Below are positions 28,567-47,238 of a stretch of DNA of 64,000 bases, piece after piece; within the stretch, counting starts at the first letter, position 1, and every line of letters begins with the position of its first letter. The notes below the pieces were generated by a model that was given only the letters and a program-made list of their open reading frames with translations, was not told where the DNA came from and did no database searches. Where the stretch lies: the NCBI RefSeq assembly GCF_014647375.1, contig NZ_BMPB01000005.1, forward strand, positions 310,001-374,000, written 5' to 3'. The translations under genes were made by a program, and so were the position numbers. The DNA comes from Parabacteroides faecis. GTDB lineage: Bacteria > Bacteroidota > Bacteroidia > Bacteroidales > Tannerellaceae.

Positions 28567-31500
28567 TTAGAAAGTAACATTTATGCCCAGTGAATACTTT
28601 TTCATGAAAGGATATTCCCAGGCTCCTTTAGAAAGCATATCCGATTCCAGACCTTCGGGCAGATGGTCCCAGGTATGCAGGTTCTCGCCGCTGACGAATA
28701 CCCGGATATTGTCCATATAGATCCTCTGGCAGAAGCTTTTCGGAAGTGTATAAGACAAAGTGATATTCTGTATTTTCAGATACGCTGCGTTCGCCAGATA
28801 TTTGGTCTGCACCTTTCTGTTGAATGATGTATTGGTCTGGTCCTGCGAATAGACTCTGGGGAAATACGCATCCGTGTTTTCCGGTGTCCAGAAGTCGAGT
28901 GTTTCCTTGAACAGACTTCCCCAGCCGCCGGTAGGCCATGCCATCTGGTCTGTACGCCAGTAATCCCGTTTGCCTACTCCGCGTAGAAAGATGGACAAGT
29001 CGAAACCTTTGTATGTTACACCGGCTGTAATGCCATATTGGTAACGGGGCGTGTTGTTTCCGATGATACGCTGGTCTCCGGGATTGTAAACCGTATTTTC
29101 TCCCTGGAAGATATATTCGGTATCTTCATCGAAGTTCTTATAAAGGATATCTCCCGGATACACTTTCCCGGCTCCTTTGAACATCGGGATACCCGGTTTG
29201 AGGGTTCCGTCGGCATTGAAATCGTCTTCCGTATAGAAACGGTCGGTGACGTATCCCCATATTTCTCCCAACTTCATGCCTTTGCGGTAGATGTTCGATC
29301 CGATCAGTCCCGCTTCATTATCGTACTTTGTGATTTCCGATTGTGAGTCATACAGATTGAAACCTACCCGGTAACCTACCTGTCCGATTTGGTCACGCCA
29401 GTTGATCTTCAGTTCCCATCCATACGTTTTCAGGTCTGCTGCATTTTGCTTTGCTGCGCTGGCGCCGACAACTCCCGGTAGTTCCATTCCCGGAGCCAAC
29501 ATTCCTTTGGTATCGCGGCGATACCAGTCGAAAGTCGTATTCAGTTTATTGTCGAACAGATCCAGGTCGAAGCCGAAATCGAGCGTATATACCTTTTCCC
29601 AACCGAAACTGCTGCTGACCATAGCGGGTGCTCCCAGTGTCGTGATCTTCTGTCCGTCTACCAGCCAGCTGGAGAGATAAACGTTCATATCCGGGATATA
29701 CGGATAGTTGTCCGGCGTATTATCGGATTTCAGGATAACCTGGTTACCGATAGACCCCCAGGATGCTCTCAGCTTCAGGTTGGAAAGATAACTGTTCATC
29801 CCTTGCATGAAACTTTCTTCCGAAACCCTCCAACCGGCAGAGAAAGAGGGGAAGAAACCGAAACGGCTGTTTTTAGGGAAACGCGAAGTCCCATCATAAC
29901 GTCCGTTGGCTTCGAACAGGTATTTTCCGTCATAACTGTAGTTGACCCGGTAAAATAATCCGCGGATAGCGAATTCTTCGAACGCATCGCTGGTTATTGG
30001 GGTTCCGGTCGATAAAGACAATGACGGAAGCGAACCGACTACAACGTCTGTCCGGTATGAATACTGGGATTCGGTATGGCTTGATTCCTGATTGTATCCG
30101 CCCATCAGGGAGATATCGTGTTTACCGAATGTCATATCATAATTTGCGAATAAGTTGACGGCATTATAATCCGTGTATTTGGAGGTAACTGCATAACTGG
30201 AATTTTCCGTGCTGTTCAGAACCCCGGTAAAGTTCAATCCGATATACTGATATTTATTCTTATAGAACTTGTTTTGCGAGGAAGTACGGTTATATGTATA
30301 TTCCCCGGTAATACGTAAGCCTTTTAAGGGCGTCAGTATAACGCGTCCCAATACACGGAGATCGTTTTGTTTGATCTTACGCGGTTCGCCGTAGCGGATA
30401 TAAGTGGCTGGTGACTCCGGGGCATATGTAATCCCGTCCTGCTCATAATCTTCGTTGTTCTGATAGGAGGGCAGATTCATTGCTGCCACCCATACGGTAT
30501 TACGTCCTCCGGCTTCCACTTTGTTCTGCTTCGAGTTGCCATATTTCAGGTCGAGTTGTGTTGTCAGCCATGAGTTGACATCTACGCCCATGAATGTAGA
30601 CAGGTTGAGTCGGTCGTAACTGTCTTTGTCGGTGATCAGGATACCGTCTTCTCCGGTGTAACCGACACCGATACGGTAAACCGTTTTCTCGCTACCGCCG
30701 GATACGGACATGCTGTGGTTCTGCATAAAACCGAAATTGTCGGTCATATCATCGAACATGTTCCGTTCCTTCATCAGGAAAAGATTCCCTTTTTCATCGA
30801 AGATATATCCTTTCGGGTATTTGCCGGGATCGCTCATGTAATCGCGGATATATCCTTCCCATTGAGTAATATTCTTGCCGTCCACATAAGTGTCGTTCGG
30901 CCAGCCCATTTCCTTATAAGCCAGGACCGATTCCAGCGGACTTGCCTTTTGGGGCAGTTCCAACGCTTTGGAGAAAGATATATTATTGTTGTAATTGAAT
31001 TTCGGGGCAGAGTCTTTTTTCCCTTGTTTGGTTGTGATCAGAATTACCCCGAATGCCGCTCTCGCCCCGTAGATGGCTGCGGATGCTGCATCTTTCAATA
31101 TGGATACCGACTCAATCTCTTGTGGGTCGATCATATTGATATCCATAGGAACGTTGTTCACCAGTACGAGCGGAGTACCTCCGTTGATGGAAGTCGTACC
31201 ACGGATATTATAGCTCATCGCATCGCCGGGTGTTCCGGTCTCCGAACCGATCTGTAATCCCGGTGTGGCTCCTTGCAAGGCTGCCGTGACATTGGCTATC
31301 GGACGGTCGCCCAGTGTTTCGGACAGATTGACGGAGGCAACGGCACCGGTCAGGTTTACTTTCTTCTGGGTACCGAAACCGACTACTACGACTTCGTCTA
31401 TCAGTTGCGAATCTTCCTTGAGTGTGACCGTCAGTTCTTTCTGTCCTTTCAGATGGATCTCCTGTGAAATGTATCCGATGAACGAGACAGTCAGCACAGC

Positions 31501-34830: not shown

Positions 34831-35733
34831 CTATCCAGTCAGACTTACGTTTATCTGGCTCTTAATGGCATTTTCCCGATAACTTATCCACCTTTTCTTC
34901 AGTTCTCCCCTGCACTGTGCAGCCTGAGACGGGGTCATGCCGTCCAGACTCCAATGCGGACGTTCATTATTATAGAAGTCTACAGCCGATTTTACCGCAG
35001 TTTTCACTTCCGGGATACAAGTAAACTTCATATCTTTAAGAAGTTCATTCTTAATGGTATTATTTACCCGTTCGGCTATGGCATTTTCCTTGGGGTTTCC
35101 ATTTTCAGTCATGCTTATGCGGATTCCGCAGTCTTTCAAGCGGGCTGTATAGGCATAACTGGCATACTGGATACCACGGTCAGAATGATGGATCAAACCG
35201 GACAAGTCTTTTCGACCATAATGGCTGATAGCCATTTCCAAAGCATCTAAAGGATACTTAGTATCCAACGTTTCTCCAATACTATATCCTATGATTTCCT
35301 TACTATAAGCGTCGGTGACGACTGACAAAAAACAAAAAATATTTTTACCCGTTACCAGATTCTCTCCCAGATGAATATAGGTAATGTCGCTGACCATCAG
35401 CTGACAAGGAGCCTGAGGGAGGAAGTTTCTAACCAGATTGGGATAAACAGGACGGTCATGTTCCGAGTTGGTGGTACGGGTACGATGATGCCGTTTGCGA
35501 ATTTTCAGCGAGAAACGATCCAGTATATCATAAAAACGATTATAACCCACGCTGTTTTCCTGACCAAATCGGCTACGGTACATCAGCCAGAGTTTGTTCC
35601 CTCCTATTCCGGGGTCTTTGGCACGGACTTCTTTAACGTATTCTATCACAAATGATTCCAATGCCAATCTTTGCATCAGATTGTCCTGATGTTTATAGTA
35701 GGCTTGTTTGCTTACACCAAGTAGACGACACAT
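34831..35733 (-). CDS. IS3-family transposase OrfB (rve integrase core)
   Basis: 300 residues. N-terminal HTH_21-like part (CRLLGVSKQAYYKH, KDPGIGGNKLWLMYRSRFG) and rve catalytic core with the DDE residues in SDITYIHLG, IHHSDRGIQYAS and NPKENAIAERVNNTIKNE, ending with FYNNERPHWSLDGMTPSQA. Its frame is open upstream past this ATG into the end of orfA (WHQVAGRLHNRDKKRY), so the active product is most likely an OrfAB fusion made by -1 frameshifting at the seven-A run in orfA. The region encoding that linker is 35734-35802. Confidence 0.93.
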   Translation of the reverse strand: MCRLLGVSKQAYYKHQDNLMQRLALESFVIEYVKEVRAKDPGIGGNKLWLMYRSRFGQENSVGYNRFYDILDRFSLKIRKRHHRTRTTNSEHDRPVYPNLVRNFLPQAPCQLMVSDITYIHLGENLVTGKNIFCFLSVVTDAYSKEIIGYSIGETLDTKYPLDALEMAISHYGRKDLSGLIHHSDRGIQYASYAYTARLKDCGIRISMTENGNPKENAIAERVNNTIKNELLKDMKFTCIPEVKTAVKSAVDFYNNERPHWSLDGMTPSQAAQCRGELKKRWISYRENAIKSQINVSLTG

Positions 35734-35780
35734 AGGGACAATGCAATATCGCTTTTTGTCCCTATTGTGCAGCCTACCTG

Positions 35781-36140
35781 CTACTTGGTGCCAGCTTTTT
35801 TTAGGTCAATCCCATATACTTCTTTTCCAAAAGCGACCATTTCCTCATAAAAATCAGCACGCAAGCGTTCCTGGGCAAGGCTTTTCTTCAACTCGCTTAT
35901 CTCCTTGAGTAATTCTTTGTAATCTTCAGGAGTCACATTTTTACCTTGTTTCTTCATCTGTTCTATCTGTTTGGGATTATCGCGTTCAAAAGTAGATAAT
36001 GAACGATAAACTGTCACACGACTTACATGCATTTTTTCCATGATGGGGGATATGTCCAGTCCTTCTATTACACGAAGACGGTAGATTTCCTCATTACGAC
36101 TATACTGTATTCGCTTTTGTTGATAATTTTGTTCTCTCAT
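35781..36140 (-). CDS. IS3-family transposase OrfA (helix-turn-helix)
   Basis: 119 residues. HTH region (RNEEIYRLRVIEGLDISPIMEKMHVSRVTVYRSL) and a C-terminal leucine-rich coiled coil (YKELLKEISELKKSLAQERLRADFYEEMV). Near the 3' end the minus strand has A-AAA-AAA-G (seven A, plus-strand T-run 35796-35802), a typical -1 slippery sequence. Slipping there joins OrfA to the OrfB frame with no stop between. OrfA alone would bind the ends and repress; OrfAB would transpose. Confidence 0.9.
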   Translation of the reverse strand: MREQNYQQKRIQYSRNEEIYRLRVIEGLDISPIMEKMHVSRVTVYRSLSTFERDNPKQIEQMKKQGKNVTPEDYKELLKEISELKKSLAQERLRADFYEEMVAFGKEVYGIDLKKAGTK

Positions 36141-36253
36141 TTTGGATTCTTATAGAGAGTCAACCATATCTACAAAAAGACACTTCACTGTAAAGTGATA
36201 TATAGTTACCATATTTTATTTCAATCATTTAAAAAAGGCTCTAAATAACAAAA

Positions 36254-37342
36254 ATGGCTTGGAGGAAGATAACAATTACACTCGATAATGGGATTTGTAC
36301 CGATGCACAGGCCCCTGAAATCGTATCAGCAAGTAGAAGTACAGATATACCGGCATTTTATGCAGACTGGTTTTTCTATCGCCTTGCTAAAGGATATTCA
36401 GCATGGACAAATCCCTTTAACGGGAAAAAAAGTTATGTCTCTTATCAGAATACCCGGTTTGTTGTTTTTTGGTCGAAAAATCCGGAAAAGCTTATTTCTC
36501 ATCTTGATGAATTGGCACAGCATACTCCAAAAATCAACTGTTATATTCAATACACCCTAAATGATTACGTTGAAGAAGGGTTAGAGAAAGGCGTTCCATC
36601 CCTCAATAAGAGAATAGATACCTTTAAAAGGCTTGTCGATAAATTGGGTAAAGGTCATGTCGTTTGGCGTTTTGATCCATTATTGCTTACAACCCACATA
36701 TCTCCCGACAAGTTGCTTAAGAAGATAGAGAATATTGGGGACCAGCTGTTGGGCTATACTGAAAAACTTGTTTTCAGTTTTGCGGATATTGAATCATACA
36801 AGAAAGTTAGGAATAACTTGATTAACAACAATATCCCTTATCAGGAATGGACGGAAGATTTGATGGTTGACTTTGCTAAAAAACTTTCAGAACTTAACCA
36901 ACGTAAAGGATGGAATTACAAACTTGCCACCTGTGGAGAAAAGCCTATCTTCAAAGAATATGGAATTCTACCGAACCATTGCATTGATGACAACTTGATG
37001 ATTAGATTCGCTTGGCAAGATTCGGCGCTGATGAAGTTCCTTGGGGTTGAGATAAGGCAAAAGAACCTACCTCAAAGCCTATTTGGTGAGTCAGAAAAAG
37101 TCCCTTCTGATGCTATTATGCTGGATGATGGCATTCACTATGCCATTAAGCGAAAAGATAATAAAGACAAAGGCCAACGAACACTTTGCGGTTGTATGGT
37201 GAGCAAAGATATTGGACAATACGATACTTGTCCACATCAATGCGAATATTGCTATGCAAATACAAGTAAGCAGACAGCTATTGCGAATTTTAAATCAGCC
37301 ATAGCAGCAGGGCTTAAAGGCGAAACAATAACCGGAAAGTAA
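36254..37342 (+). CDS. DUF1848-family protein with C-terminal CxxxCxxC cluster
   Basis: 362 residues, soluble. The N-terminus has the family signature VSASRSTDIPAFYADWFFYRL, followed by a TIM-barrel-like alternation (NTRFVVFWSKNPEKLI, CYIQYTLNDY, GHVVWRFDPLLLT, KLVFSFADIESYKKV). Near the C-terminus a cysteine group CGC (312, 314) and CPHQCEYCYANTS (Cys 326, 330, 333) gives C-x3-C-x2-C, the iron-sulfur pattern of radical-SAM enzymes, here at the unusual C-terminal end. The family has no established reaction. It is first in a tight operon: the next ATG is 5 bp after its stop. The AT-rich composition matches the two genes that follow and not purL. Confidence 0.82.
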   Translation: MAWRKITITLDNGICTDAQAPEIVSASRSTDIPAFYADWFFYRLAKGYSAWTNPFNGKKSYVSYQNTRFVVFWSKNPEKLISHLDELAQHTPKINCYIQYTLNDYVEEGLEKGVPSLNKRIDTFKRLVDKLGKGHVVWRFDPLLLTTHISPDKLLKKIENIGDQLLGYTEKLVFSFADIESYKKVRNNLINNNIPYQEWTEDLMVDFAKKLSELNQRKGWNYKLATCGEKPIFKEYGILPNHCIDDNLMIRFAWQDSALMKFLGVEIRQKNLPQSLFGESEKVPSDAIMLDDGIHYAIKRKDNKDKGQRTLCGCMVSKDIGQYDTCPHQCEYCYANTSKQTAIANFKSAIAAGLKGETITGK

Positions 37343-37347
37343 AAAGA

Positions 37348-40300
37348 ATGAGTGCATTTATTGATAATCTAAAGCAAACAAAACGTATCTCATTCGGTAG
37401 CATGAGGTATGTTGCTATGGAGCATCTTAGAACAATAAGTAAGGTGCAACAAGATACGATATACGAAGAACTTCAAAGAGGTAAAGGAATCCTTGATGAC
37501 GATGAGCATCTAGATATGTATCTCAAAAGCTTTGGAAAGATGCATGAAGCCAAATTGCATGAGGCTTTCGAGTGTTTGCCGTCTACTATGGATTTTGAAA
37601 ATACATTGTTCGAAATCTATGATTGGGGCTGCGGACAGGGCACTGCCTCGATTTGTTTATTGGATTATTTTGAAAACAACCACATTCAAGCTAAAATAGA
37701 ACGCATAACTTTGATTGATCCGTCAAAAGCTGCACTAGATAGAGCCCTATCAGTAATTGCTATTCATCATCAGAAACCAATCGAAATACGTCAAGTACAA
37801 AAAGGTTTTGATTCTCTTGTAGAAAATGATATAGTAGGTAGAGTAAAACATAAATTGCATCTGTTTAGTAATATTCTTGATGTAGAATTCTTTGATTTAT
37901 CTGAGTTCATTCACCTCTTTCAGAAGAGTATAGCAGGAGACAATTACTTTATCTGTGTAGGTCCTTACTATACGAACAACAAGAGAGCGGATGAGTTCAT
38001 CGCAGCAGTATGCCCGGACACAATTTTCGCTATTCAAAATTATGAAAAGGGTAAATGGATTAATGATTGGAGTATGTCTCTTCGTGAGTTCTCCAAAAAT
38101 ATCGATAAGGTTGAAGAAGTCAATACTATCAGAAAACGTATTGCCGAATTTAAGAAAAGACAGCAGTTTTTTGCCGGCTATATTATTGATGCTGTATCAG
38201 AAGAGTTGTCACAATATGATACAGAGAATACAGAAAAACTTCTTAAATCAATCGCAGCTTTTGATGTAATATCTAATAAGCCATTTGACTTACCACAAGA
38301 TTTGGATTCAAAATGGGCTGTTGTAAATAATATCGTGACAAGAGGAATTCCTACTCTGGCCCCTGTCTTTTTGGAAGAAATATTCTCAAAAATATACGGA
38401 ATATCTAGTGTTCCAGATGCTGATAGCCCTTCACTGAGATATAAATCCAATGGGACACTTAGTGGGGGAATTCTATTTGAAGCTCTTCACGTGATTGATC
38501 CACGATTCTCAACTGAGTATTATAATGGGGATATGCTTGAAAGTTCATTTGAAAAGGCTTTTATCGAAAATAAATTTAAACATGAAAATAGTGAATATCT
38601 AATTCAATTGTTGGAACCCCAACGTTGTCTTTCTTCGTTAGTCCGTATTCCTGATAAACAATTTGTATATGACAGACGTGTTGATTTTGCATTGGAAATG
38701 CCATATACTAAGAGTGATGGGACCTCAACCGGCGAATCTCCTGTCGGTTTCATAATTGAGGTGGATGGTTCATTATACCATTCAAACATATTTGATAGAA
38801 TTAAGGATGAACGCCGCGATAGAATGACATCCCAAAATCATTGGGATACTTATCGGCTGACAAATTTGTTAGACAATTCTTTTATTGACAATTGGGAGCA
38901 TGAAGCAGCTTTCGTTGATTATCTCAGTATTATTAAACAAAACTATTCTAAAAAAATAGAGGGGGATTGGAGAAGCTATCTTGAAATGGCATTGGCTCCT
39001 TTTGCAATTGCTCGTATTCAAAAAATGCTTATCGAAGCTATTCTCTGCGGACATCTAACCATGGAGACTGATTCGTGGAGGTTTGCTGTCATAGAAAGGG
39101 ATATACCTTGTGCAGCAATAGCCATAAAAGACTTGCAAGATAAATTTGAGCATCTGGCAGAACTGGATGGAACTGACATTAAGCTTCCCTTTATTCGGCT
39201 GGATATAATCTCTACGGACGAATTTAAGAATTCCAAGCTTCATCTTGGAAATAGGATTTATACTGAACAACCTGAAGGAAAATATGATTTTTGCATTGAT
39301 ATATCGATGCTTTTGCGTGCTCAGATTGATTCACAGCCTATGCGCATTGATGCAGATACATATTACATTGCTCGCAGTTCTCACTACAAGAGAGAGGAAA
39401 GAAGAATATACAGCGCTCGCAGTATAAACTACGTCCCATTGGTCAATAAGAATGGAAGAGGTGAATATACGGATTTAGAGGGACCCAAAAAGGTCCTGAC
39501 TTATTTTCTTAATGAAGTGTTTCGTAAACGTTCTTTTAGGAAAGGTCAGTTGCCTATTATAAGTCGTTCCTTATCTAATCACACAACCATAGGATTGCTT
39601 CCTACTGGAGGTGGAAAGTCCCTTACTTATCAAATATCATCAGTCCTTCAACCTGGTGTTACTTTAGTTGTAGATCCTCTTATTTCCCTTATGGTGGATC
39701 AATGTCGTGGACTAACGGATATCAGAATAGATGCTAGTGCTTGTGTAAATAGTACGCTGAAAAGAAAAGATAGAGAAAGCAATCTTAACCAAATGCAAAA
39801 TGGAAATTTGCTTTTTATACTTCTGTCTCCTGAAAGATTCATGATGACGAATTTCCGTGAATCTCTTTATAAAATGTCAACAAAGAACAATGTTTACTTC
39901 TCCTATGGAGTAATTGACGAGGTTCATTGTGTTTCTGAATGGGGCCATGATTTCAGGCCTTCCTACTTACATTTAGGAAGAAACATGATTCGGTATATGT
40001 GTACAAAATCAGGAAAGCCAATATCCATAATAGGATTAACGGCGACTGCTTCTTTTGATGTCTTAGCTGACGTGGAACGAGAACTTACATTGGGGGGCGA
40101 TCTGTCGTTTGATAGCGAAGCCATAATCAGACCTGAAAATGACACCAGACCTGAACTCACTTATAAAGCTGTTCCGGTAAATGCTGATTTCTCAACTATC
40201 AGAGATATGCATCAACCGACTTTACTGATCGGTGATGAATGGACTATAAAAGGATGTGTGGCAGAGGCTAAGAAAAAGGCAATTCGAGAGCTTTTTGATG

Positions 40301-42525
40301 AAATACCCCACGACTTGGAACGCTTAAATGAGCATGGGACTTGTAAGATTACTAATTATATACCTGATGAATTTTACGAGCCCGATGATAATCAATTATT
40401 CCCATATGCAGGTATCATATTCTGTCCACATAAAAGGGGCACATTTGGTGTCATTGATACTGATACTACACAAGGCATAGCTTCTTATATATTATGTTGT
40501 AAAGGCGATCTTCATGTTGGAACGTTTGTTGGAGGTGATAAGCCAAGTGGAGATATGAAATCGTTCAATGATAATGAGCAGAATGTAATGGTGGCCACAA
40601 AAGCTTTCGGTATGGGGATTGATAAACCTAATGTTAGATATACGATTAACGTAAACCATCCATCTTCAATAGAAAGCTTTGTTCAAGAAGCGGGACGTGG
40701 TGGGCGTGACCGTAAAAATGCTATATCCTATTTGTTATATGAATCAACAGAATTCATCAATCTATCCGTTGATAAGATTAATGATATTCGTTATATCATG
40801 GGAAAAGAAAATGATCCGATTTGGTTGTGGAACTATCGGAATAGATATATACTGGCAGAAGACTTAGCCACGATTTGTTTTGAAAATGGTTGCAATTCAA
40901 GCCAAACCAATCAGATTATCACTATTTGTAAAGGGCATGGTTTCTATGAAAACGTTGATAAGAATATAGAGCTTTGGTTTCATAATAATTCATTTAGAGG
41001 CCTGTATAAAGAAAAGGTTATCTTAAACGAAATGACAGATCGTATTCTCAATACAAAACCAAGCCGATTTCTTGAAGTTCAGGAAAAATTGCGAGATAAC
41101 CTTGGGTCTACAGATTATAGAATCAGATTGAATGTCGCTAAGAATTCGTTGCAGGTCGTATCTGAAGATGATGGATCCAAGCAATACGGCTATTTATTCC
41201 TGGAAAATCTTCATGTTACTTACAAGTTTATAGGTTTTGATATGGCTTTGTGTCAGTCTGTTATGAGCGAACTGGTCTCAATCTTACATGATTATCCGCA
41301 ACATGATGCTGCTTGGCTTAATCATCCCATTGATGATCTTGAAGTAGATGATTTCGGTATTTATGCTGCTATCAAATCAATGGGACAAGATGACTATATT
41401 TATGTTACTGTTTCGTGGGAAAACCAAATTCAGCAGAATTATGATGTATTTGTGCAAAATATTCATGAGGCAATTCAACAGATTGCAATAGCTCAACAAT
41501 GGAATATACCGAACGAACAGAAACATGGTTCGCTTAAATTGGATAAAATAAATGACTTTGATTCTCTTCTTTCAAAAATTGCTAAAATATCAGAAGACCC
41601 ACGATGGCTGATTTATCATGCTAATACGGATATATATAGGCCATTACAAAATGCATTCTGCAAAAAAAGAGATAAGGATGATACCGACAAGGCTATCTAT
41701 AGAATGTGTTGTGTCGGTTTGGTAGAAGATGTTACTATTGATTATGGAACACAAACCTATCAATTAATGATAAAAAAACGTGATGATCAAGAATATCTTG
41801 GTTATATGCTTGATTTCTTTAAAAAGTATTATTCGTCAGAGCAAGCAGAAGAGAAAGTTGCTGAAATTCAGAATCAAAAGGGGAGAAATATTCTTGATAA
41901 ATGTTTATCATATTTAGCCAGTTTTGTCTACAATAATTTGGAGAAGAAACGATTTCGCGCTATTGAAGATATGAGATTGGCATGTGAAGATGGTATTGAA
42001 AAAGGAGAAGATTGGCTGAAAGAGTTTATTCACTTATACTTCAATTCAAAGTATGCTAGGGATGATTATAAGATTGATGGAAATCCCTACTCTTTGAAAA
42101 TGGATACGGATAAGAAAACAGAAAGTTTCGAACTCGTTAGAAAGTACATAAAGGCCATGCGTACAGATTCTTCTGGGAGCGAAGTTGATAATGTAAAACA
42201 TCTCTATGGTGCAACTTTATTGGTATTGAGAGCACACCCTGAGCACGCTGTATTACACTTATTAAGAACATATTGTATAGCCTTTTTGGGTACGGGAACC
42301 AATGCGACATTGCAAAAAGATGCACTTTCAAGCTATGTAGATGGATTTATACAGCTTGATAAATCAAAAAATATCAATGTAATGGGACTAATTGACGAGT
42401 ATAATGCATTTCTTTCAATCTCAAACGACGATTATGTGAAAAATAAAATCCTTAAGGAAGGAAAGGATCTCGTAATGTTGTACAAACATGGAAATTGGTT
42501 CGATGATTTCACTGATAAGTATTAA
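37348..42525 (+). CDS. Methyltransferase-like / nuclease-like / RecQ-type helicase fusion protein
   Basis: 1725 residues. (a) About 60-240: class I SAM-methyltransferase fold, motif I DWGCGQGTAS (Asp 92) and motif II LIDPS (Asp 124). (b) About 380-560: a Vsr/DUF559-like or PD-(D/E)xK-like nuclease segment with E471-V-D-G-x3-H478 then DRIKDERRDRM (483-492). (c) About 725-1150: superfamily 2 helicase of RecQ type, with FRKGQ Q-motif, Walker A PTGGGKS (752-758), DEVH (857-860), GLTATAS (896-902) and motif VI QEAGRGGRD (1113-1121). A roughly 100-residue insertion separates the two RecA lobes. (d) 1150-1725: long helical region I do not recognise. No RQC zinc site or HRDC domain is evident. This is not housekeeping RecQ; the fusion suggests DNA defence. 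The boundaries are by eye. Confidence 0.82.
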   Translation: MSAFIDNLKQTKRISFGSMRYVAMEHLRTISKVQQDTIYEELQRGKGILDDDEHLDMYLKSFGKMHEAKLHEAFECLPSTMDFENTLFEIYDWGCGQGTASICLLDYFENNHIQAKIERITLIDPSKAALDRALSVIAIHHQKPIEIRQVQKGFDSLVENDIVGRVKHKLHLFSNILDVEFFDLSEFIHLFQKSIAGDNYFICVGPYYTNNKRADEFIAAVCPDTIFAIQNYEKGKWINDWSMSLREFSKNIDKVEEVNTIRKRIAEFKKRQQFFAGYIIDAVSEELSQYDTENTEKLLKSIAAFDVISNKPFDLPQDLDSKWAVVNNIVTRGIPTLAPVFLEEIFSKIYGISSVPDADSPSLRYKSNGTLSGGILFEALHVIDPRFSTEYYNGDMLESSFEKAFIENKFKHENSEYLIQLLEPQRCLSSLVRIPDKQFVYDRRVDFALEMPYTKSDGTSTGESPVGFIIEVDGSLYHSNIFDRIKDERRDRMTSQNHWDTYRLTNLLDNSFIDNWEHEAAFVDYLSIIKQNYSKKIEGDWRSYLEMALAPFAIARIQKMLIEAILCGHLTMETDSWRFAVIERDIPCAAIAIKDLQDKFEHLAELDGTDIKLPFIRLDIISTDEFKNSKLHLGNRIYTEQPEGKYDFCIDISMLLRAQIDSQPMRIDADTYYIARSSHYKREERRIYSARSINYVPLVNKNGRGEYTDLEGPKKVLTYFLNEVFRKRSFRKGQLPIISRSLSNHTTIGLLPTGGGKSLTYQISSVLQPGVTLVVDPLISLMVDQCRGLTDIRIDASACVNSTLKRKDRESNLNQMQNGNLLFILLSPERFMMTNFRESLYKMSTKNNVYFSYGVIDEVHCVSEWGHDFRPSYLHLGRNMIRYMCTKSGKPISIIGLTATASFDVLADVERELTLGGDLSFDSEAIIRPENDTRPELTYKAVPVNADFSTIRDMHQPTLLIGDEWTIKGCVAEAKKKAIRELFDEIPHDLERLNEHGTCKITNYIPDEFYEPDDNQLFPYAGIIFCPHKRGTFGVIDTDTTQGIASYILCCKGDLHVGTFVGGDKPSGDMKSFNDNEQNVMVATKAFGMGIDKPNVRYTINVNHPSSIESFVQEAGRGGRDRKNAISYLLYESTEFINLSVDKINDIRYIMGKENDPIWLWNYRNRYILAEDLATICFENGCNSSQTNQIITICKGHGFYENVDKNIELWFHNNSFRGLYKEKVILNEMTDRILNTKPSRFLEVQEKLRDNLGSTDYRIRLNVAKNSLQVVSEDDGSKQYGYLFLENLHVTYKFIGFDMALCQSVMSELVSILHDYPQHDAAWLNHPIDDLEVDDFGIYAAIKSMGQDDYIYVTVSWENQIQQNYDVFVQNIHEAIQQIAIAQQWNIPNEQKHGSLKLDKINDFDSLLSKIAKISEDPRWLIYHANTDIYRPLQNAFCKKRDKDDTDKAIYRMCCVGLVEDVTIDYGTQTYQLMIKKRDDQEYLGYMLDFFKKYYSSEQAEEKVAEIQNQKGRNILDKCLSYLASFVYNNLEKKRFRAIEDMRLACEDGIEKGEDWLKEFIHLYFNSKYARDDYKIDGNPYSLKMDTDKKTESFELVRKYIKAMRTDSSGSEVDNVKHLYGATLLVLRAHPEHAVLHLLRTYCIAFLGTGTNATLQKDALSSYVDGFIQLDKSKNINVMGLIDEYNAFLSISNDDYVKNKILKEGKDLVMLYKHGNWFDDFTDKY

Positions 42526-42544
42526 CAATAAAAATATCAACTAT

Positions 42545-43330
42545 ATGGATTACAATATAAATAACGCATTAGAGAATTTGGAGAAGAATCTGCAAAAGGT
42601 GGATTCGGCTCGTGAACAGGTTGAAAAGACTGTAAACGCATACTCTCAGCTTCAAGGAAAAGTTGAAGTATGCACTAATTGCTTCCATGACCTTGTATCA
42701 AGTGTAGAGGCATTGATATCTATAGCTAAAGAACACCGGAATTTTATTTCAACAGAAATGAATTCATCTTTAGTCTCAATAAAAGAATCATGCGACAAAA
42801 TTAATAAATCATTTGATGACTCTTGTGGAAAAGCAGCATCTAATTTTGAAGAGAAAGCTACTAAGAGTGTGATTCAACTTAACGAAAACATTGATAGCCT
42901 TAAAAGACAAATCAGTGGCTTAGATTCCATTGAGAAATCTTTTGCTTTATCAATGGATCAAATACGATCTTTAAAGATAAAGATTGAAAATATTGCTGAA
43001 AATTTGGATTCATCTCAATCTTCTCAGGATGATTTACTCAATGCAATAGATAATAATGTAAATGAGTGCAAACGGATGATTGAAACTGTCACAAAGGGGT
43101 TGTTGCGCAAACAAGAAGAACTGCAAACTCTGATTGGCACAAAATCGTCAGAAGTATCATCGTGCATCAATGAATCCTCCAGTAAAACACAGAAACTCTT
43201 ATCTGAAAGCAAAGATAGTATAACTCAACAAAACAATATAAATGCCAAAATGATTGCTAAGAGTCATAAACTGATCTATTGCATAATCGCTCTTATAGTT
43301 ATAGATATAGTGATGCACTTCATAATATAA
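42545..43330 (+). CDS. Coiled-coil protein with C-terminal membrane anchor
   Basis: 261 residues from the ATG at 42545. An upstream in-frame ATG (42488) lies inside the helicase gene and adds unconserved residues. Residues 1-225 are almost all charged/heptad helix (NALENLEKNLQKVDSAREQV, SLKRQISGLDSIEKSFA, IKIENIAENLDSSQ), followed by one C-terminal transmembrane helix (about 241-260, LIYCIIALIVIDIVMHFII). No enzyme motif is seen. Third gene of the operon, 19 bp after the helicase fusion. A tail-anchored coiled coil could be a membrane sensor, scaffold or effector for the other two proteins; this is inference from order only. Confidence 0.75.
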   Translation: MDYNINNALENLEKNLQKVDSAREQVEKTVNAYSQLQGKVEVCTNCFHDLVSSVEALISIAKEHRNFISTEMNSSLVSIKESCDKINKSFDDSCGKAASNFEEKATKSVIQLNENIDSLKRQISGLDSIEKSFALSMDQIRSLKIKIENIAENLDSSQSSQDDLLNAIDNNVNECKRMIETVTKGLLRKQEELQTLIGTKSSEVSSCINESSSKTQKLLSESKDSITQQNNINAKMIAKSHKLIYCIIALIVIDIVMHFII

Positions 43331-43451
43331 TCTAAAAAAATACAAGTTTGTTTGATTTGTTCGTTATCTAGTCTCTTTTTTAGCTTGGTCTTTGCCTAAA
43401 AAAGGTGGAGAAATCCTCTGTGGAATTTGGATAGGAGTCCAACTTATTTTG

Positions 43452-43548: not shown

Positions 43549-46500
43549 ATGATTCTATTCTTTCAATCTCCAACAAAGACGGTGCTGGCTGTTGAGGCGG
43601 CACATGCTTTCTCTCCTGAAGATGTTCAAAAGCTCGTTTGGTTGTTTAGTGAAGCAACTCCCGTTCAATCGGAAACATTGGATGGCTGGTATGTTGGTCC
43701 CCGCCGGGAAATGATCACCCCGTGGAGTACTAATGCCGTGGAAATCACCCAAAATATGGGATTGAGCGGTATCTCACGTATCGAAGAATACTTCCCTGTA
43801 TCTTCCGGTGAGGCAGACCACGACCCGATGCTGCAACGCATTTACAACGGACTGAACCAGGATATCTTCACGATCAGTAAACAACCGGATCCGATTGTTT
43901 ATATCGAAGATATTGCAGCTTACAACCAACAGGAAGGGCTGGCGCTGAGTGCTGAAGAGGTGTCTTACCTGAACGAAGTAAGCCAGAAGCTGGAACGTAA
44001 GCTGACCGACAGCGAAGTGTACGGTTTTGCACAGGTAAATTCGGAACACTGCCGTCACAAGATCTTCGGCGGTACATTCGTTATCGACGGAGAAGAGAAA
44101 GAAAGCTCTCTCTTTAACCTGATTAAGAAAACATCGGCAGAAAACCCGAACAAACTGGTTTCTGCTTATAAAGATAATGTGGCTTTCAATGAAGGTCCGG
44201 TGATCGAACAGTTTGCTCCGGCAAGCGGTGACAAACCTGATTTCTATGAAACAAAGGTATATAAATCGGTTATCTCTCTGAAAGCTGAAACACATAACTT
44301 CCCGACAACGGTTGAGCCGTTTAACGGTGCTGCTACCGGTTCAGGTGGTGAGATCCGTGACCGTCTGGGCGGAGGTAAGGCTTCTTTGCCTATCGCTGGT
44401 ACAGCCGTTTACATGACTGCTTATCCGCGTACGGAAGGTGCTCGTGAATGGGAAAAGATCATGGACCCGCGTCCTTGGTTGTACCAGACACCGGAACAGA
44501 TCCTGATCAAGGCTTCCAACGGTGCTTCCGACTTTGGTAACAAGTTCGGCCAGCCGCTGATCTGCGGTTCGGTACTGACTTTCGAACACGAAGAGAATAA
44601 TAAGAAATATGCTTACGATAAAGTGATCATGCTGGCAGGTGGTGTTGGTTATGCCAATATGCGCGATGCTTTGAAGGGTGATCCTCAGCCGGGTGAAAAG
44701 GTCGTACTGCTGGGTGGTGACAACTACCGTATCGGTATGGGCGGTGGTGCCGTATCTTCTGTAAATACAGGACAGTACACCAGCGGTATCGAGTTGAACG
44801 CCGTACAGCGTGCCAACCCGGAAATGCAGAAACGTGTATCGAACGTGATCCGTGCGATTGCAGAGTCTGACAACAATCCGGTAATCTCTATTCACGACCA
44901 CGGTGCAGGCGGTCACCTGAACTGTCTGTCTGAGTTGGTGGAAGCTACCGGCGGACATATCGATATGAGCCAGTTGCCTGTCGGTGACCCTACGCTTTCT
45001 GCTAAGGAAATCGTAGGAAACGAGAGCCAGGAACGTATGGGCTTGCTGATGAAGGAAGAAGACGTTGCCCGCGTACGCCGCATTGCCGACCGCGAACGCT
45101 CTCCGATGTATGTAGTAGGTGAAACGACCAACGATATGAAATTCGTATTCGAGCAGGCCGACGGTGTGAAACCGATCGACATTAAGCTGGAATATATGTT
45201 CGGTAAACCGCCTAGAACAATCATGACAGACCATACAGTGAGCGAAACTTATGCTCCTGTGGTTTACAAAGATTCAGAAATACATCATTATCTGGAAAAC
45301 GTACTTCAGCTCGAAGCTGTTGCATGTAAAGACTGGTTGACCAACAAGGTAGACCGTTCCGTAACAGGTAAGATCGCCCGTCAGCAGTGCCAGGGTGAAT
45401 TGCAGTTGCCGTTGAGTGACCTGGGTGCCGTAGCATTGGATTACCGCGGAAAGGCTGGTATCGCTACTTCCATCGGTCATGCTCCGCAGGTGGCTTTGGT
45501 CGATCCGGCTGCCGGTTCGGTAATGGCTATCGCTGAGTCGTTGACGAATATCGTATTCGCTCCGCTGGCTGATAAGTTGACCGGTGTTTCTTTGAGTGCT
45601 AACTGGATGTGGCCGTGCCGCAACGAAGGAGAAGACGCTCGTCTGTACACGGCTGTTCAGGCCGCTTCAGATTTTGCCTGCGAACTGGGTATCAATATCC
45701 CGACAGGTAAAGACTCTTTGTCGATGACACAGAAGTATGGCGACGATAAGGTGATCGCTCCGGGTACGGTAATTATTTCGGCAGGTGCTGAGGTAAGCGA
45801 TATTCGCAAGATCGTTTCTCCGGTATTGGCTCACGAAAAGAATTCTTACATATATTATATAGACTTCTCGTTCGATACGATGAAGTTGGGCGGTTCTGCT
45901 TTTGCACAGGCTTTGAACAAGCTGGGTAATGAAGTGCCGACCGTGAAGGATAGCGAATATTTCGCAGATGCGTTCAACGCCGTACAGGATGCGATCGAGA
46001 AAGGTCTGATCCTTGCCGGACACGATATTTCTGCCGGTGGTATGATCACTACCATGCTTGAAATGTGTTTCGCAAACGTAGAAGGCGGTCTGGAAGTCAA
46101 TCTGGATAAGCTGTCTGAAACAGACATCGTGAAGATCCTGTTCGCTGAAAACCCGGGTATCCTGGTACAGGTGAAAGACAAGAAAACTTTCGAAAAGTTG
46201 ATGGAAGAAGCCGGTGTCGGTTTCGCTATCATTGCCAAACCGACTGCCGAACGTCATATCCTGGTGGAAAAAGACGGTGTTCAGTATCACTTCGGTATCG
46301 ACTATATGCGTGACGTATGGTACGAATCGTCTTACAAACTGGATATCAAGCAGAGCGGTAGCGTATGCGCAGGCAACCGTTTCGAAAACTATAAGATGCA
46401 GCCGCTGGAATTTAAATACGGCAAGAATTTCACCGGTAAGCTGGCTGACTACGGTCTGACTCCCGACCGTAAAGGTAAGAGTGGTATCCGTGCTGCGGTA

Positions 46501-47238
46501 ATCCGTGAAAAGGGTTGCCAGTGCGAACGTGAAACATCTTACGCATTGTATCTGGCCGGTTTCGACGTGAAAGACGTTCACATGACTGACTTGGCTTCGG
46601 GACGCGAAACACTGGAAGATGTGAATATGATCGTATTCTGCGGTGGTTTCTCCAACTCCGACGTTTTAGGTTCAGCCAAGGGATGGGCCGGTGGTTTCTT
46701 GTATAACGAAAAGGCTAAGAAAGCATTGGATAACTTCTATGTACGTCCTGATACGTTGAGTCTGGGTATCTGTAACGGTTGCCAGCTGATGGCTGAACTG
46801 GGTGTGGTTTATCCGGAACACGAAAAGAAACATAAGATGTTGCATAACGACTCTCACAAACTGGAGTCTAACTTTATCTCTGTAGAGATTCCGAAGAACC
46901 ATTCAGTGATGTTCGGTCCGATGAGCGGACAGAAACTGGGTATCTGGATCACACACGGAGAAGGAAAGTTCAGCTTCCCGTACGAAGAGAAAGAATATCA
47001 TATTGCTCTTAAATATAACTATGAAGGCTATCCTGCCAACCCGAACGGTTCGCCCTGGTCGGTTGCCGGTGTCTGCTCACACGACGGACGCCACATGGCT
47101 ATGATGCCTCACTTGGAACGTGCTTTGTTCCCATGGCAGTGCGGTTATTATCCTGCTGACCGTAAAGGTGACGAAGTAACTCCGTGGATTGAAGGTTTTG
47201 TAAATGCACGCAAGTGGATTGAAGAAAACAAGAAATAA
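43549..47238 (+). CDS. purL: Phosphoribosylformylglycinamidine synthase (FGAR amidotransferase)
   Basis: 1229 residues, the single-chain large PurL type. It converts FGAR, glutamine and ATP to FGAM, the fourth step of purine synthesis, in the cytoplasm. Seen: N-terminal PurS-like domain; linker VNSEHCRHKIFGG; first AIRS-like domain with SLKAETHNFPTTVEPFNGAATGSGGEIRD and GGDNYRIGMGGGAVSS; second AIRS-like domain (SIGHAPQVALVDPAAGS, NIPTGKDSLSM, AGHDISAGGM); C-terminal class I glutaminase with nucleophile motif GICNGCQ (Cys 1075) and MPHLERALFPWQ. Full length, normal base composition, monocistronic, ended by a strong terminator. Confidence 0.98.
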   Translation: MILFFQSPTKTVLAVEAAHAFSPEDVQKLVWLFSEATPVQSETLDGWYVGPRREMITPWSTNAVEITQNMGLSGISRIEEYFPVSSGEADHDPMLQRIYNGLNQDIFTISKQPDPIVYIEDIAAYNQQEGLALSAEEVSYLNEVSQKLERKLTDSEVYGFAQVNSEHCRHKIFGGTFVIDGEEKESSLFNLIKKTSAENPNKLVSAYKDNVAFNEGPVIEQFAPASGDKPDFYETKVYKSVISLKAETHNFPTTVEPFNGAATGSGGEIRDRLGGGKASLPIAGTAVYMTAYPRTEGAREWEKIMDPRPWLYQTPEQILIKASNGASDFGNKFGQPLICGSVLTFEHEENNKKYAYDKVIMLAGGVGYANMRDALKGDPQPGEKVVLLGGDNYRIGMGGGAVSSVNTGQYTSGIELNAVQRANPEMQKRVSNVIRAIAESDNNPVISIHDHGAGGHLNCLSELVEATGGHIDMSQLPVGDPTLSAKEIVGNESQERMGLLMKEEDVARVRRIADRERSPMYVVGETTNDMKFVFEQADGVKPIDIKLEYMFGKPPRTIMTDHTVSETYAPVVYKDSEIHHYLENVLQLEAVACKDWLTNKVDRSVTGKIARQQCQGELQLPLSDLGAVALDYRGKAGIATSIGHAPQVALVDPAAGSVMAIAESLTNIVFAPLADKLTGVSLSANWMWPCRNEGEDARLYTAVQAASDFACELGINIPTGKDSLSMTQKYGDDKVIAPGTVIISAGAEVSDIRKIVSPVLAHEKNSYIYYIDFSFDTMKLGGSAFAQALNKLGNEVPTVKDSEYFADAFNAVQDAIEKGLILAGHDISAGGMITTMLEMCFANVEGGLEVNLDKLSETDIVKILFAENPGILVQVKDKKTFEKLMEEAGVGFAIIAKPTAERHILVEKDGVQYHFGIDYMRDVWYESSYKLDIKQSGSVCAGNRFENYKMQPLEFKYGKNFTGKLADYGLTPDRKGKSGIRAAVIREKGCQCERETSYALYLAGFDVKDVHMTDLASGRETLEDVNMIVFCGGFSNSDVLGSAKGWAGGFLYNEKAKKALDNFYVRPDTLSLGICNGCQLMAELGVVYPEHEKKHKMLHNDSHKLESNFISVEIPKNHSVMFGPMSGQKLGIWITHGEGKFSFPYEEKEYHIALKYNYEGYPANPNGSPWSVAGVCSHDGRHMAMMPHLERALFPWQCGYYPADRKGDEVTPWIEGFVNARKWIEENKK

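Follow-up and report, generated by a model that had tools for sequence, protein, structure and literature searches.

The RqlHI, PsyrTA and ShosTA systems combine DprA with a phosphoribosyltransferase (PRTase), which in RqlH comes with a RecQ helicase; an antitoxin role is described for DprA homologs, and genotoxicity is ascribed to the PRTase portion of RqlH (PMC9122126, PMC4670107). In Hachiman (HamAB), a sensor helicase is reportedly joined to an effector nuclease (PMC12278908). A further paper mentions neither RecQ nor DprA (PMC10853773). Here we analyze a stretch of 64,000 nucleotides from Parabacteroides faecis (contig NZ_BMPB01000005.1, positions 310,001 to 374,000; referred to in full as the window), in which an earlier note had singled out a trio of adjacent genes as a candidate system without a described counterpart. 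The trio encodes a DUF1848 protein, a large fusion protein with a helicase, and a tail-anchored coiled coil; its genes and the regions of the fusion are as follows, with ORF denoting open reading frame and SF superfamily:

36254..37342, + strand: gene 1, DUF1848 protein of 362 aa (Pfam DUF1848, E 6.3e-84)
37348..42525, + strand: gene 2, methyltransferase-like/nuclease-like/RecQ-type fusion of 1725 aa (ORF, Pfam and motifs)
37348..38190, + strand: class-I methyltransferase-like domain of gene 2, residues 1-281 (DWGCGQG at 92, LIDPS at 122, HLFSNILD at 171)
38488..39027, + strand: PD-(D/E)XK / DUF559-like nuclease region of gene 2, residues 381-560 (VDFAL at 445, IIEVDG at 469, RIKDERRD at 484)
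39478..40782, + strand: RecQ-type SF2 helicase of gene 2, residues 711-1145 (TGGGKS at 753, DEVHCVSEWGHDFRP at 857, QEAGRGGRD at 1113)
40783..42522, + strand: family-specific C-terminal region of gene 2, residues 1146-1725 (consensus RDKxDTEKAIYRL, YFNSKYAR, KHLRGA)
42545..43330, + strand: gene 3, tail-anchored coiled coil of 261 aa with a single membrane segment at the extreme C-terminus (ORF, relatives)

All motifs looked for are present in the window copy. The trio shares with RqlHI, PsyrTA and ShosTA a RecQ-type helicase fused to a possibly toxic enzymatic domain, encoded in one operon with a partner gene, and a relative on a Klebsiella plasmid (L028; loci and genomes from our searches carry L and G numbers) provides a further link, as it has DprA and a PRTase on the same nuclease-RecQ-coiled-coil scaffold. 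It differs from these systems in its methyltransferase and DUF1848, the added nuclease region and the tail-anchored coiled coil. No PRTase family was found in gene 2 by Pfam, PADLOC or NCBIfam, and no DprA-like partner was found in the trio, where the partner is DUF1848; DprA occurs only in the relative L028. With DpdF, gene 2 has the RecQ-type helicase core in common, and DpdF-labelled models are its best PADLOC matches, yet we rejected this identity because gene 2 scores 147.5 bits where NCBIfam requires 550; other Dpd names gave weak matches only (DpdJ E 0.003-0.02, DpdH 0.015) in a scan confined to the trio. The PsyrT profile fits best at the RecQ part of gene 2, and, as in the earlier note, no named system is matched. 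Judged by its sequence, the trio is not a member of RqlHI/PsyrTA/ShosTA, as it lacks PRTase and DprA, nor of Dpd, as its score is far under the cut-off. Hachiman likewise combines helicase and nuclease, but the trio has a RecQ-type helicase, an added pair of S-adenosylmethionine (SAM) chemistry and a membrane anchor, and no Ham names are among the listed PADLOC matches of the trio. The DRT-associated DUF1848 of PADLOC (RTasDUF1848) belongs to the same DUF1848 family as gene 1 (E 6.9e-34); no reverse transcriptase is among the Pfam matches of the trio, the nearby insertion sequence (IS) ORFs and the neighbouring DUF6078 gene. In its mode of action the trio would be most like RqlHI/ShosTA and the helicase-nuclease defences.

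We searched residues 1-701 of gene 2 in 395 genomes of the phylum and obtained matches in 14 of them, the own genome included. With plasmid relatives (4 of 232 matching records were opened) and later loci, the family set comprises 20 helicase genes, counting near-copies (the window and L001, L027 and L041, L039 and L040). All 20 helicase genes are directly followed by a gene of 114-292 aa with its hydrophobic peak at the extreme C-terminus; with starts assigned mechanically, the gap ranges from -98 to +102 bp. The loci read contain 896 ORFs between 100 and 320 aa long, and 24 of them passed a strict tail-anchor rule, 18 of these being the post-helicase genes; those of L033 and L036 do not pass, and two of the six other ORFs that do are a second tail-anchored gene in two near-identical Rhodothermus loci. 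At the loci of the own genome's three housekeeping RecQs, not one ORF satisfies the rule. Helicase and tail-anchored coiled coil are the constant scaffold, and the DUF1848/methyltransferase pair is exchangeable upon it. Such a conserved combination would constitute a recurrent bacterial defence core that the profile sets we used label DpdF or plain RecQ; the literature searched held no match for a tail-anchored coiled coil with helicase and nuclease in phage defence. Within gene 3 itself, we place the start at the ATG at 42545 (261 aa) instead of the earlier ATG of the mechanical ORF at 42488 (280 aa), because a SAREQV-type N-terminal motif (SARIQV in L107) is common to the gene 3 proteins of the fusion clade described below in the alignment of relatives.

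Two side observations concern loci of this family. In the Rhodothermus-type plasmids (L027:11022-13869, L041:2501-6116), the second tail-anchored coiled-coil gene stands beside a large protein without PADLOC match and adjoins the RecQ operon. In L031 (7671-8630), a gene that looks reverse-transcriptase-like by eye lies shortly upstream of the nuclease-RecQ/coiled-coil operon.

The motor of gene 2 is a RecQ-type SF2 helicase by its motifs and Pfam matches (DEAD 2.4e-15, Helicase_C 2.1e-12), and recQ_fam gives 214.9 bits at a cut-off of 219.8, or 219.8 with in-frame neighbours in the genome search; neither RQC nor HRDC is among the Pfam matches of gene 2 or its C-terminal family. The own genome encodes three full housekeeping RecQs besides gene 2, and in the helicase tree the 19 family rows are split from these three at 100/100. 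A housekeeping RecQ identity, which would have contradicted the earlier note, was rejected on the grounds of this separation and of the genome's own RecQs. Within the tree, the five methyltransferase-RecQ fusions (window, L076, L030, L107, L124) form one clade (97/96), L124 being placed unsurely on a very long branch. The C-terminal region was aligned in 10 rows, with one weak family match in a row other than the window's and none for the window copy; a match of its profile to 7rdr was dismissed as repeat-like (E 1.8e-6, covering 26 residues in a repeat protein).

Ahead of the helicase, window gene 2 carries the DUF559/Vsr-like motif VDF...IIEVDG...D..RRD, which recurs in relatives and provides a catalytic motif of the D...ExD type, as judged from the sequence. 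A pattern made up of VDF, [IV]E[VI]DG followed by His or Tyr, and D..RD, in this order, matches 14 of the 20 family helicase proteins, with EMDG seen by eye in L076; it has no match in L025, L038 and L124, and the nuclease region is absent from L030 and L107. The region has no Pfam match in window gene 2, its profile reaches E 0.088 against PDB 3hrl, and the Klebsiella relative L028 matches DUF559 at E 7.5e-10.

The N-terminal domain of gene 2 matches several Pfam methyltransferase models weakly, those of the window copy (residues 85-175) all lying below cut-off, and PDB 1im8 at E 0.0035. Its glycine-rich motif is conserved in an alignment of 21 rows, and the motif-IV Asp is kept in 19 of these, being lost in both copies of genome G741 (Glu in L124, Gly in L123). 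We ran the profile of this domain (A2) on 393 Bacteroidales genomes, taking E <= 1e-30 as strong, and then Pfam DUF1848 on the order, again as 393 genomes; DUF1848 was counted as present at E <= 0.001 (77 of the 80 genomes with a match are above the Pfam cut-off; a piece in G561, at 7.5e-6, is below). G577, G487, G655 and G662 (E 8.8e-6 to 4.1e-4) and two fragment rows were dropped from the methyltransferase counts. Strong matches occur at 21 places in 19 genomes, and 18 of these 19 also have DUF1848 (Pfam DUF1848), compared to 62 of the 374 others (Fisher p 1.1e-12). For 17 of the 21 places, DUF1848 and methyltransferase share a contig and are separated by no more than ~3.5 kb; in two of the 17 (L112, L113) DUF1848 is truncated where the contig begins, and in L114 both are fused, a second methyltransferase ORF there being counted apart. 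The exceptions are G653 at a contig edge, whose DUF1848 piece ends another contig, G449 with DUF1848 on another contig, and the two places in G741, a genome without DUF1848. The pair is also present in L029, L037 and L076-L079 (loci from the phylum search, from viral contigs and from a phage record). Gene 1 and METHYLTRANSFERASE are an exchangeable pair, and DUF1848 and the methyltransferase very probably form a functional unit.

The partners of the pair vary. They are a nuclease-RecQ with coiled coil in the window and L076, a RecQ with coiled coil in L107, an SF1 helicase fused after the methyltransferase domain in L029, L117 and L122, and in L110 a separate SF1 helicase together with a 2CompART ADP-ribosyltransferase-like protein (Pfam E 3e-25), an arrangement that L115 and L116 share by gene order and similarity by eye. 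Sel1 repeats accompany the pair in L108, L119 and L121, Sel1 with BspA-type leucine-rich repeats (LRR) in L118, and FGE-sulfatase domains in L037; in L111 the methyltransferase occurs with LRR alone and without adjacent DUF1848. The earlier note had treated the trio as a single system, and this view is borne out only in part: the combination recurs, but its two modules also occur apart. Conservation of the whole trio is narrow, extending to the near-identical copy in the same species (L001), to L076, where DUF1848 is only a 111-aa ORF, and to L107, which has gained AlkB but does not have the nuclease region.

The distribution of DUF1848 extends beyond the pair. The 40 other Bacteroidales DUF1848 loci that we read, a part of the total, gave 2 weak matches to the methyltransferase profile; many look solitary, and visual inspection placed a few next to SF1-helicase genes or other genes resembling methyltransferases. 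In the phylum, 55 genomes have DUF1848; 51 of these genomes fall in one family (f18), nearly all of them with a single copy, and there DUF1848 may have a non-defence role. On contig 8 of the own genome (L143:4501-6377), the gene upstream of another DUF1848 gene, and overlapping it, is Cys-rich and has a glycine motif like that of methyltransferases, and similar pairs were seen by eye in L198 and L199. In L206, L214 and L216, proteins recognised by eye as SF1 helicases or as ADP-ribosyltransferase-like are encoded close to DUF1848, with no strong match to the methyltransferase profile. A standalone methyltransferase-like relative is encoded on a Moraxella osloensis plasmid (L073:5881-6723), downstream, by a few genes, of a radical-SAM gene of the viperin family and two genes before an SSB gene, with no DUF1848 match in that stretch.

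DUF1848 is a Pfam domain of unknown function, and its name, alone or with RecQ, is absent from the literature searched, which covers few subscription papers and preprints. Seven cysteines (C227, C243, C312, C314, C326, C330, C333) are invariant in an alignment of 27 rows, the last three forming a CxxxCxxC motif near the C-terminus (residues 326-333 of 362) that is kept in 27/27. The structure model (pLDDT 92.2) is predicted to adopt a radical-SAM barrel fold: the top 26 rows of its VIA-align comparison are radical-SAM enzymes throughout, and a radical-SAM profile matches residues 316-340. The PDB sequence search with the DUF1848 profile returned only two unrelated matches (E 0.27, 0.29), so the fold assignment rests on profile comparison and predicted structure. 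On this basis DUF1848, the 'cysteine-cluster protein' of the earlier note, is very probably a radical-SAM enzyme.

The cluster motif of radical-SAM enzymes normally lies at the N-terminal end of the barrel, and for the PDB entries matched by the model we assume the cluster positions accordingly. In DUF1848 it is instead at 326-333, the opposite end, which is why we consider the protein to be probably circularly permuted. With spore photoproduct lyase, MqnE, Elp3 and the PA0069 family DUF1848 shares the CxxxCxxC motif and the predicted barrel fold, but the motif follows the rest of the barrel and four further cysteines are invariant. In hhalign comparisons with radical-SAM profiles, the aligned columns increased from 25 to ~231 only after permutation at positions 250-310. 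Two observations speak against the permutation: it lengthened the alignment without raising the scores, and a second, unpermuted match is weak, at a score of 19.5 compared to 14.1 for reversed controls. The permutation is for these reasons probable, not proven.

Known defence genes lie within ~5 kb at 5 of the 6 related loci whose neighbours were scanned, in keeping with the expectation of a defence association. L030 is located between ZacB/ZacC and BrxC, DrmA follows ~4 kb on from L025, type I specificity and DrmD-like genes are near L038, and type I methyltransferases near L026 and L107; the one neighbour of L027 that was scanned has no match. The scan covered 10 proteins of five loci (three of the proteins without match) together with L107 and L115, and since neighbours were picked as promising-looking and other family loci lay outside it, the count is not an unbiased enrichment test. 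Presence or absence among close relatives and the patchy distribution also fit defence. Taken together, the genomic context makes a defence role of the operon quite probable.

What the pair does is best approached from the position upstream of the fusion. In the fusion clade this slot is occupied by DUF1848 in the window (a 111-aa ORF in L076), by AlkB followed by DUF1848 in L107, and by AlkB alone in L030 (Pfam 6.2e-33), where DUF1848 was not found in the genome holding the locus. L124 has no upstream partner, and its genome G741 has neither DUF1848 nor AlkB. AlkB is a demethylase family. In the Klebsiella plasmid NZ_CP058546.1 (L028:4104-10233), a ShosA-type DprA stands upstream of a fusion in which HAD and a ShosT-like PRTase stretch precede DUF559 and RecQ, followed by the tail-anchored coiled coil, all in one operon among insertion sequences. 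The operon resembles a ShosTA system assembled on this scaffold. Residues 469-1471 of the L028 fusion match PADLOC model PDLC02868 (E 1.8e-111), which carries the label DpdF but may for this reason describe the present helicase family instead.

The slot partners AlkB and DprA, the joint loss in G741 and the precedent of DprA antitoxins and PRTase genotoxins lead us to prefer, tentatively and at somewhat less than even chances, antagonism between a writer and an eraser over co-operation; the preference is argued from gene position and does not amount to proof. Against it, L124 has also lost helicase motifs, so that general decay is an alternative explanation for the loss of motif IV. As a whole, the best explanation, itself provisional and short of an even chance, would be a membrane-tethered helicase-nuclease defence with an antidote-like writer/eraser pair, encoded by a mobile operon. 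The C-terminal helix of gene 3 would fix it in the inner membrane, where it would hold the large protein, which would load on DNA, unwind it by the RecQ motor and cut it by the DUF559-like nuclease, activities suggested by domains and motifs. The N-terminal methyltransferase and DUF1848 would be linked in their action and share one nucleic-acid target, the former writing a methyl adduct that blocks the invader or a nucleic acid essential to the host, the latter, a permuted radical-SAM enzyme, removing or preventing the adduct on self. AlkB can accompany or replace DUF1848, and DprA with a phosphoribosyltransferase fills the slot in the Klebsiella relative.

A larger joint proposal, possible yet rather unlikely to hold in full, is that DUF1848 and the methyltransferase constitute a new portable conflict module, a permuted radical-SAM eraser of a toxic methyl mark, interchangeable with AlkB, on helicase, ADP-ribosyltransferase or repeat-protein chassis; under that same proposal the window trio would be its nuclease-RecQ, membrane-tethered form. 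Placing DUF1848 in the radical-SAM superfamily, with a probable permutation, and tying it genetically to one methyltransferase family and to AlkB makes the chemistry testable. Writer/eraser antagonism, if true, would mean an antidote working by radical chemistry on nucleic acid.

Among the alternatives, co-operative self-marking survives best, although we regard it as doubtful: the pair would carry out a two-step hypermodification of nucleic acid, and the helicase-nuclease would attack unlabelled DNA in a manner resembling restriction-modification (R-M) or Dpd/Dnd. The co-occurrence of DUF1848 and methyltransferase, mostly close and fused once (L114), the presence of nuclease motif and helicase in one polypeptide, and the type I R-M genes near L026, L038 and L107 would all suit such a scheme. 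The pair, however, also accompanies LRR, Sel1, FGE or ADP-ribosyltransferase-like partners, with no nuclease among the Pfam matches of those genes; no target-recognition domain was seen, and a demethylase family in the same slot misfits a marking step. It is improbable that the pair is only a sensor or switch, responding for instance to SAM state or nucleic-acid damage, with killing left to the nuclease-helicase. The pair is indeed the constant part across partners including helicases and an ADP-ribosyltransferase-like protein, but the motifs of both enzymes are conserved and several partners are recognition repeats (Sel1, LRR) and not effectors, which suggests that the pair itself acts. Most improbable of these is an operon for the repair of alkylation or photo-damage, for which AlkB in two relatives and the fold match to spore photoproduct lyase, one of several radical-SAM enzymes matched, beside a RecQ-type helicase could be cited, given the patchy distribution (14 of 395 genomes), the insertion polymorphism, the membrane-anchored partner in 20/20 loci, the BREX, DISARM, Zac and type I R-M neighbours and the three full RecQs already in the genome.

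The surroundings of the trio in the window comprise two further features:

36182..43442, no strand assigned: inserted block, approximate extent (alignments to L137, L138 and L141)
34831..36140, - strand: IS3-family element with two ORFs, one with an rve integrase core (Pfam), outside the operon

The arrangement described in the earlier note was reproduced: three genes on the same strand with gaps of 5 bp and 19 bp, the second given the gene 3 start at 42545, lying between the IS3-type element on the opposite strand and purL, which starts downstream at 43549, and AT-rich relative to purL (GC 33-38% in 1-kb bins over 36001-43000 compared to 47-50% over 44001-47000). L138 carries the trio and is 99.2% identical over 8267 bp, with similarity from window position 36182 and no match to the IS3 element; the element is accordingly not part of the operon, and we rejected the trio as IS3 cargo. 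In the congeneric genome of L141, DUF6078 similarity lies ~130 bp from purL with nothing operon-like between, and in L137, without the trio, similarity begins only at window position 43442. These three alignments identify the trio as an insertion with roughly placed edges, the left one within ~220 bp between 36182 and the DUF6078 similarity in L138; no convincing direct repeats were seen at the edges. An RNA component was rejected, as between positions 30000 and 50000 no Rfam family reaches its gathering threshold, and the window has no tRNA. The insertion is polymorphic among close relatives, and gene 2 is present at 99% identity on a P. goldsteinii contig, the sole locus from the genome contig search.

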